A stretch of 64,000 nucleotides of DNA. Source: Terana coerulea (Eukaryota > Basidiomycota > Agaricomycetes > Polyporales > Phanerochaetaceae). Positions 51,563 through 53,591 of this stretch are shown here, piece by piece. The DNA lies in contig JAKOGH010000261.1 in the NCBI GenBank assembly GCA_024811115.1, positions 62,001-126,000 of the forward strand, read 5' to 3'. A model generated the notes under the pieces. The model was not told the origin of the DNA, did no database searches, and saw nothing but the letters and a program-made list of their open reading frames with translations. The position numbers and the translations under genes are program-made. Positions within the stretch are counted from its first letter, which is position 1. Each line of letters starts with the position of its first letter.

Positions 51563-53591
51563 CTATTGGCCCGATTTCCAGTATGCAATGTCACCGTCGA
51601 CCACTGCAAGTATCATCAGAATACGCTTTCGGAGCAGGCATGAGCAGACACTTACTCTCGTATTCCTTACCCTGCTGCCTAAGCTTGCCAGCGGCTTTGA
51701 CGGCAGCTTCGCTGCCAAGCTCATGCAGGTCAGGATAGGCCATGATTTCGCCACAGACGAACTTCTTCTCGAAGTCAGAGCTACGGGATAACCATGAGCT
51801 GGAAGCTCCACAAAACGTAGCAGGCAAGACGTACTGAATGACACCGGCAGCCGCTGGTGCCTTGATACTACGCCGGATGGTCCACGCACGGACTTCGTCC
51901 GGACCACACGTGAAGTAGCGGATGAGGTCAAGGCTGGCGTAACCCGCCTGCGTGATTTTGCCCAGAGCGCTGGTGGCCCCTATGGCCTTCTCTTCTTCCG
52001 CCCTGGCCTCGTCAGACTCCATGCTCATGAGACGCTCTTCAAGAGCGACGGAGAAAGGAATGATAGGGTCGCCGGGGTTGTTCTCGTCGACCCAGGCTTT
52101 GATCTTTGGCAACCTGACGATTGACAACAGTTATGTAAAAGTAGCTGACGGGTGAGCGTAGGAACATACCACTTGTTTTTCTTGCGAATGTAATCCTTTT
52201 CGCTCAAGTTGACGAGATAGGTGACAGGCTTGGCGGTGAGCAGCTGGAGGCTGTTGACAACGTCAACCTACAGAAGGAGCAACAAAGCATTAGCTTCAAT
52301 GCGATGATTGAGTCGGATAGAAGTCAGAGAAAAGGATTATCTCAACGGCATATTGGGGCGTTACTCCCGCCTCGATGAGCTGGGTTAATCGAGCTTACAG
52401 CTCTTTGTCATCATACCAGAGTGATTCGCGACTGGTCGCAACCACCACCCAAGACAGAACGGAGAGCTCATTCACCTAGGGAGAAGATATAATTAGTCAC
52501 TATGTCAACCGAGGGGCCGATAGAGGATGTATGCAATCAAAAGGTCAGAATAAATGTTTTTCTCATTGAAATATTGGGGCGTTACTCCCTTCTCGACGAG
52601 CTGGGTTATCGAGCGCTACGCTCTTTTTCATCACGGTAACAAGCACAAAAATGGGAAGATGAAAAGCACGATGGCGAAGGTCTGGGGACTTACCTCCTTA
52701 TTTGTCCACTCCACCTTGCGGACATCCTTGTTGTCGACGGTCAGAACTTTGTATATCTTCTCGATAGTAGCCTGAATGGGTGTAGTGAGCAGCTGTTTGG
52801 GCCGTGCAGCAACGAGACCTACAATTTCCTCCTTCTTCGCCTTGTCAGCCAAGCTTGTGTTTCCCAATGCGCGTCCAGTCTTCTTCATGCCTTCAAGATG
52901 CTTCTCGACCCACTCAATATCCTTTAACCGAAGTTCCGTCTGGATGATCTCCATGTCACGCATAGGGTTGACGTCGCCCTCAACGTGAATGACGTCGGCA
53001 TCGTCAAAAGCGCGGATCATTTGGAAGATACCATCGACGGCGCGGACGTGAGATAAGAAGGCATTGCCGAGGCCAGCACCAGTAGACGCGCCCTGCCACG
53101 ATCATAAGAGGACATAACATGAGGTGGAAGAAGGGCACTCACAGCAGTAAGACCGGCAATGTCAATGCAAGTCAACGCGGCAGGGACACGCGAAGCGGGC
53201 TTGTAGGTGTTGCAAAGCCATTCGAAGCGTTCGTCAGGGACCATAATACGGGCTTCCTGAGAAGTGTGTGAGCATCTCAAGGCCCACAGTGGGACAGCCT
53301 ACATACCTCAGGGTTTATGGTGGCATAAGGGTAGTTCGCAGCCTTTCCAAGGTCTGTGCTTGCGATCAGCAGCGTGCCTGCGTTTGACGTGTCCGAGACG
53401 ACGTACCGGTCTTGGAGAGCGTGTTGAAAAACGATGACTTGCCAACGTTTGGTACTCCTGTACGACAAAATGCTTTAGCAATAGAGCGATATATGATACA
53501 CAGCGAACAGACCTACGATTCCAATCTTCAGGTTGTTTCCAGGTCGACCCAGAAGGGTCTTCTTTTCCACCACGGCTTTCTTGGGAGGCAT
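51563..53591 (-). CDS. OLA1: Obg-like ATPase 1 (YchF family)
   Basis: P-loop NTPase of the YchF group; uses ATP and binds ribosomes/proteasome and stress pathways. Starts [27 protein letters not shown], with G1 NVGKSS completed over an intron. It continues with [21 protein letters not shown] (G3), [30 protein letters not shown] and then the coiled-coil arm. The exon ending KVEWTNKE joins over a 426-nt intron to [20 protein letters not shown] and [13 protein letters not shown]. The TGS domain includes [52 protein letters not shown] and [13 protein letters not shown]. About 390 aa, normal. No frame break. The long intron hosts two snoRNA candidates. Confidence 0.96.
52319..52419 (-). ncRNA. Box C/D snoRNA candidate 2, snR69-like guide
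   Basis: Paralogue of the unit at 52540-52639 in the same intron. Box C is ATGATGA (complement 52408-52414), followed by hairpin GAGCT-GTA-AGCTC, antisense AACCCAGCTCA (52376-52386, 11 nt matching 25S UGAGCUGGGUU), D' TCGA (52372-52375) directly adjacent, the shared 19-nt block 52350-52368, and box D CTGA (52324-52327). Relative to copy 1 the hairpin's fifth pair changes T-A to G-C on both sides, a compensatory change. The D-box-proximal sequence differs between copies, so only the D' guide appears conserved. Confidence 0.7.
52350..52368 (+). repeat. 19-nt block identical to 52571-52589
   Basis: The most conserved part of the two snoRNA units (atattggggcgttactccc on the plus strand). It can fold GGG-AGTAACG-CCC on the RNA strand. 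It lies between D' and D and its role is not explained by the guide. Confidence 0.8.
52571..52589 (+). repeat. 19-nt block identical to 52350-52368
   Basis: Second copy of the invariant block, in snoRNA candidate 1. Same orientation, 221 bp away. Confidence 0.8.
52628..52634 (-). other. Box C of first (5') snoRNA candidate
   Basis: GTGATGA on the gene strand, a perfect RTGATGA box C. The matching box D CTGA is at complement 52545-52548. Confidence 0.7.

Follow-up and report, generated by a model that had tools for sequence, protein, structure and literature searches.

Does the unusually long intron in the OLA1 gene of Terana coerulea encode two related small nucleolar RNAs, to which family would they belong, and how could two such RNAs be parted from one intron? 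A sequence-only reading of the window, the whole 64,000-nt stretch of DNA analysed here, had described two paralogous box C/D candidates in this intron, and every position that it states was found to be exact. Once nine introns are removed, the gene encodes an OLA1 (YchF) protein of 393 aa without internal stops, which scored 442.7 bits against TIGR00092 (cut-off 279.2), contains the Pfam domains PF06071 and PF01926, and is related to PDB entries that bear the names YchF GTP-binding protein and Obg-like ATPase 1. The top-scoring of the 120 homologs listed, from Irpex, Phlebiopsis, Trametopsis and Cytidiella, are 88-90% identical. The long intron lies between codons for ...WTNKE upstream and VDVVNS... 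downstream, and its length does stand out as claimed, the other eight OLA1 introns measuring 50-56 nt each.

52268 to 52693, minus strand: OLA1 intron, 426 nt, phase 0; scores of the outer splice sites 10.24 (donor) and 6.05 (acceptor)

Two units were delimited in this intron, referred to as A and B in the order of transcription.

52545 to 52634, minus strand: unit A, snR69-type box C/D snoRNA candidate, 90 nt from box C to box D
52628 to 52634, minus strand: box C of A, GTGATGA
52598 to 52607, minus strand: guide of A, AACCCAGCTC, next base G
52593 to 52596, minus strand: D' of A, TCGA, non-canonical
52571 to 52589, minus strand: 19-nt block of A, between D' and C'
52560 to 52566, minus strand: putative C' of A, ATGAGAA, non-canonical
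52545 to 52548, minus strand: box D of A, CTGA
52324 to 52414, minus strand: unit B, snR69-type box C/D snoRNA candidate, 91 nt from box C to box D
52408 to 52414, minus strand: box C of B, ATGATGA
52377 to 52386, minus strand: guide of B, AACCCAGCTC, next base A
52372 to 52375, minus strand: D' of B, TCGA, non-canonical
52350 to 52368, minus strand: 19-nt block of B, identical to that of A
52339 to 52345, minus strand: putative C' of B, TTGAGAT, non-canonical
52324 to 52327, minus strand: box D of B, CTGA

Both units thus have the perfect C and D boxes and the length of about 90 nt ascribed to them, with RUGAUGA and CUGA within 60-100 nt of each other, and they share the guide and the 19-nt block exactly as described. 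Single C...D pairs are not rare (five in the window, counting both strands, versus a mean of 3.6 over 60 shuffles); two such pairs 80-330 nt apart are rare, with one occurrence in the window versus a mean of 0.04 over 100 shuffles. Alignment of A with B gave 74 identical bases at 89 aligned positions and a score of 124, compared to 34.4 +/- 6.5 for shuffled sequences, none of 1,000 of which scored as high. This alignment leaves no doubt that A and B are homologous, and the earlier description of them as paralogous holds. No homology was detectable between the 5' leaders of A and B (935 of 1,000 shuffles as good) or between their 3' tails (268 of 1,000), and retention of the units with drift of the flanks is as expected if selection acts on the RNAs alone. 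The second guide position, ahead of box D, is unlike between A and B. The GGG...CCC in the 19-nt block could pair as a small hairpin, but the identity of the whole block in A and B goes beyond what a small hairpin requires. The block fails to align with the Afu_304 consensus and may be an additional site of pairing.

A covariance search was used to place the units in a family. Both matched RF00475 (snR69) and RF01511 (Afu_304) over the full model length, A with 33.5 and 31.7 bits and B with 33.2 and 33.5 bits, respectively, so that the snoRNA assignment found its family match, albeit with scores (31.7-33.5 bits) under the Rfam gathering scores of 50 for RF00475 and 35 for RF01511, a gathering score being a curator's threshold and not part of the RNA itself. 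A scan of an 801-base stretch against all of Rfam gave E-values of 0.0007-0.0017 for these two families on A and B, and in the same scan of the whole window they were the sole matches with E<1 (0.054-0.13). In the 48.4-Mb assembly, A and B alone were matched at E<=10 among the first-look candidates scored (52 of 2,773 for RF00475 and 48 of 4,026 for RF01511), with E-values of 0.021 and 0.024 for RF00475 and, for partial matches of 43-44 nt, of 5.4e-4 and 0.0019 for RF01511; the same E<=10 also admitted matches in 8 (RF00475) and 6 (RF01511) of 14 prokaryote control genomes. The assembly contains the string AACCCAGCTCNTCGA at two places, each of them in this intron (backward control, one). The target string of the guide 10-mer, GAGCTGGGTT, occurs 82 times in the genome, and its backward control likewise 82 times, so the 10-nt guide by itself proves nothing. 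As positive controls, snR52 and snR60 were each found twice above cut-off at other loci of the genome, and SNORD24 stayed below its cut-off (weak, E 0.80). Since two of the three control families pass their cut-offs, the low scores of A and B are not due to a general shortfall; they are taken to mean that this pair, or the basidiomycete form, has diverged from the Rfam models.

The resemblance to snR69 and Afu_304 extends to box C, a guide with AACCCAGCUC (AUCCCAGCUC in the Afu_304 consensus), the D' sequence UCGA, which occupies the same place in the consensus lines of RF00475 and RF01511, and box D. A and B differ from both Rfam models in having about 10 additional bases from D' to C', and from snR69, CD27 and Afu_304 in being two copies within one OLA1 intron. 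By these features A and B are snR69-type isoforms, a known kind of RNA and not a new one, and the intron is very probably the source of two fungal snR69 isoforms, each a box C/D guide RNA. The snR69 identity was absent from the sequence-only reading, as were a compensatory 5-bp hairpin and an AG|GT junction described below. The two snR60-type snoRNAs of this genome (loci L053 and L054, on contigs C680 and C495) adjoin exon-like sequences that resemble each other and lead into GTGAGT, as though each snoRNA occupied the corresponding intron of a pair of paralogous hosts; these loci have one snoRNA per intron, versus two in the OLA1 intron.

Each unit has a hairpin in the interval between box C and the guide.

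52611 to 52623, minus strand: hairpin of A, GAGCG-TAG-CGCTC, 5 bp, present in the predicted fold
52391 to 52403, minus strand: hairpin of B, GAGCT-GTA-AGCTC, 5 bp, read from the sequence

A compensatory change distinguishes the inner pair, G-C in A but T-A in B; in the consensus of Afu_304 this position is occupied by GAGC-AUU-GCUC. The predicted fold of B favours a different pairing, one engaging the guide, over its hairpin. Folding stability of A and B was not above that of shuffled sequences (z 0.79 and -0.42, respectively), and the canonical terminal stem joining boxes C and D is absent from both predicted folds. A terminal stem can be missing from intronic C/D RNAs. It is very unlikely that A and B are intronic pseudogene copies or chance boxes without function, as boxes, guide, D' and 19-nt block have been kept in both copies between scrambled flanks and the genome search gave no further snR69 candidate (52 of 2,773 first-look candidates scored), even though family scores under the cut-off and the lack of a fold signal would suit such a reading.

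The exact LSU-site pattern had no match in the 48.4-Mb assembly, and the rRNA target was tested on L025, a short IMG/VR environmental contig with a eukaryotic LSU end that is not the rRNA of this fungus. The guides of A and B form 11 consecutive base pairs with the LSU fragment (L025, bases 32-42), the pair next to D' being G-U in A and A-U in B, and the fifth base before D' falls in both units on C36 of L025, the cytosine of GAGC, which we take to be yeast 25S C2948. This numbering agrees with the spacing of Am2946, Cm2948 and Cm2959 along GAGCUGGGUUUAGACC. On L025, therefore, a D' guide of at least 10 bp to LSU rRNA places its fifth base on the snR69 cytosine. In yeast, Am2946 is assigned to snR71, Cm2948 to snR69 and Cm2959 to snR73 (PMC8307265), and 25S C2948 is listed within the peptidyl-transferase centre. 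The Neurospora crassa CD27 is described, in PMC2780460, as an intronic snR69 homolog with Cm2906 guided by D'. Bases 1-121 (about 120) of L025 resemble eukaryotic LSU rRNA and are followed by other sequence with open reading frames; the contig is probably a chimeric assembly.

We infer that A and B are transcribed and processed and that they direct methylation, along the following lines. The two RNAs would be transcribed together with OLA1 and then spliced out, C/D proteins would protect each RNA of about 90 nt while the remaining intron is trimmed, and the D' guide of each unit would pair with LSU rRNA, leading to 2'-O-methylation of one same cytosine. A division of labour between the copies, in which A may reach Am2946 and Cm2948 and B Cm2948 alone, is improbable: the guide and D' core are identical in A and B, and what follows the guide differs slightly, A having TCGAGA and B TCGAGG. 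In its favour, a single D' element of CD27 is predicted for both Am2904 and Cm2906 in PMC2780460, and SNORD29 gave a single, unconvincing match in the genome (E 8.9), with a model that may miss fungal forms.

How the two RNAs might be separated turns on the stretch of 130 nt that runs from box D of A to box C of B. The sequence AGGT occurs once in the 426-nt intron, and this single occurrence lies between the units (GTGACTAATTATATCTTCTCCCTAG|GTGAATGAG), where an AG preceded by a candidate branch point is directly followed by GT.

52476 to 52496, minus strand: internal 3' splice site candidate, with CTAAT branch point, pyrimidine tract and TAG
52470 to 52475, minus strand: internal 5' splice site candidate, GTGAAT, abutting the AG and leaving a zero-length exon
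52476 to 52693, minus strand: sub-intron 1 if splicing occurs in two steps, 218 nt, containing A
52268 to 52475, minus strand: sub-intron 2 if splicing occurs in two steps, 208 nt, containing B

We lean towards a single intron, usually released as one lariat that an endonuclease would then cut in the spacer, AG|GT being a relic or a coincidence. The outer sites are good (10.24 and 6.05) and enough for a correct OLA1 mRNA, and the internal donor is weak. After release of one lariat, exonucleases together with a single cut in between would part the snoRNAs; the spacer has no unusually stable fold that an endonuclease might recognise (z 0.47), which tells against this course, as does a placement of AG|GT that is unlikely by chance, on a figure obtained post hoc. 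From the density in 264 kb of this genome, 0.012 occurrences of CTRAY plus YAGGT are expected per 125 nt, and 0.00095 if the pyrimidine tract is included, the pattern having been set post hoc.

These figures favour another reading, a real possibility although not the outcome we would expect: two introns would lie back to back around an exon of zero length, splicing would proceed in steps at TAG|GTGAAT, and the arrangement would have arisen when an entire intron was duplicated in tandem between its AGGT borders. The sole AGGT of the intron stands between the units behind CTAAT and a pyrimidine tract, and its acceptor (5.80) is the top internal AG of the intron, close to the real acceptor at 6.05; 7.6% of the AGs in the window score at least as high, which lessens the weight of this rank. 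Both outer borders of the intron also read AGGT (GGAG|GTAAGT and TGTAG|GTTGAC). The distance from GT to box C is similar in the two halves, 59 nt for A and 61 nt for B, an agreement within 2 nt that has by arithmetic a chance of about 4% for a randomly placed site; in N. crassa these distances are mainly 41-60 nt, according to PMC2780460. The donor speaks against stepwise splicing, since GTGAAT scores 1.97, below the donors of seven of the eight other OLA1 introns, and stronger donor-like sites lie in or beside box C of B (GTAAGC at 52398, 6.26; GTATGA at 52416, 5.92). One protein-supported OLA1 intron has a still weaker donor, of 1.22. Use of the internal acceptor without a second step would lead to a stop at the 27th codon.

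The splice matrix was derived from 106 frame-consistent mini-introns, and the reversed sequence yielded 28, so that about a quarter may be false. The donor matrix is biased against GTGAAT because it was seeded with G at +5. When this demand was dropped, three frame-consistent candidates were obtained from 109 GTGAAT in 264 kb versus 0.4 expected; the corresponding list held 309 candidates versus 119 in the reversed control, a control that is too low, and the excess was spread across many unlikely donors. Because a like excess is seen at many unlikely donors, the 3 of 109 for GTGAAT is no evidence of its use. An origin by whole-intron duplication was also sought in the flanks of the two halves and is unsupported there, as the leaders and tails do not align (935 and 268 of 1,000 shuffles as good, respectively). 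Stepwise splicing of the OLA1 intron is accordingly put forward as a hypothesis, and the fuller proposal of a tandem duplicated snoRNA intron in a coding gene, with a zero-length exon, recursive splicing and a lariat of its own for each snR69 isoform, we consider doubtful.

Precedents for exon-less snoRNA introns are available to such a proposal. According to PMC3596301, three fungal snoRNA clusters have undergone at least 61 exon losses that left introns side by side, these juxtaposed introns being removed stepwise from 5' to 3' or via alternative acceptors and occurring in non-coding hosts of hemi-, eu- and archiascomycetes. For clusters of the Candida group, PMC5033589 gives recursive splicing with an exon size of zero, and it mentions a C. 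albicans snR69 intron. In these clusters a 3' splice site abuts a 5' splice site, as the candidate sites do in the OLA1 intron; their hosts are non-coding and their snoRNAs differ from one another, whereas the OLA1 intron has a coding host, two isoforms and putative splicing. RPL7 and NOG2, which are protein-coding, carry conserved snoRNA introns in fungi and share with OLA1 a snoRNA within the intron of a protein-coding gene; the snoRNA families and hosts are other ones, and no second copy is mentioned in the accessible text of PMC8476143. Stwintrons (PMC8469720, PMC9024468) likewise have two introns at one place and consecutive splicing, but there the internal intron is inserted into a splicing element of the outer one and divides it, whereas the OLA1 halves would be side by side; a stwintron reading was rejected on the end-to-end junction.

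The suggestion that the arrangement may be new does not extend to its kind. The family, the rRNA site and exon-less tandem snoRNA introns are already known, and PMC3511168 argues that snoRNAs change places between host genes of broad expression. No report of a snoRNA, snR69 or other, in a fungal OLA1 intron was found in the literature searched, largely non-subscription, and OLA1 as snR69 host is unreported as far as that literature goes. The assignment links a guide for rRNA methylation to a host gene in a polypore-like fungus. Annotation of snoRNAs is sparse in the group of this fungus; for Pleurotus ostreatus, PMC5040776 reports seven from an Rfam search. The AG|GT poses the question of recursive splicing versus a nuclease in parting two snoRNAs of one coding gene. 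If recursive splicing proved true, a new intron, preserved by its cargo, could arise directly when an intron is duplicated in tandem from one AGGT border to the other.

Relatives were also sought elsewhere. The snoRNA pattern scan of viral contigs gave no matches, and a looser viral scan gave two (L055 and L056), both rejected, as the pattern lies inside long open reading frames and no snoRNA family matches. The sole match in genome contigs, L026, titled a bacterial MAG, was likewise rejected, with no readable box C ahead and no snoRNA family match. None of 15 pattern matches in viral contigs encodes a relative of OLA1 (P0002). The snoRNA matches outside this genome are thus read as chance.

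An insertion at residue 213 of OLA1, sought as a trace of an intron retained in the gene models of other fungi, was present in one of the 120 listed homologs (7,985 found), P0096, with 14 aa. A retained snoRNA intron was rejected for this insertion, whose final codon is incompatible with an intron ending in AG, and it is therefore uninformative on the snoRNA. At the N-terminal end of the protein, a second in-frame ATG upstream of the OLA1 start (53702-53592, minus strand) adds 37 residues (MLGALLLRLRPPPPSYPPAFACRHFSVSYPVFAKKRN), an arginine-rich, RHFS-like extension resembling mitochondrial presequences. N-terminal extensions of 23-76 aa are present in 30 of the 120 listed OLA1 homologs, many with a similar R-x-F-S, and it is possible that the alternative start yields a mitochondrial OLA1 isoform in Agaricomycetes.
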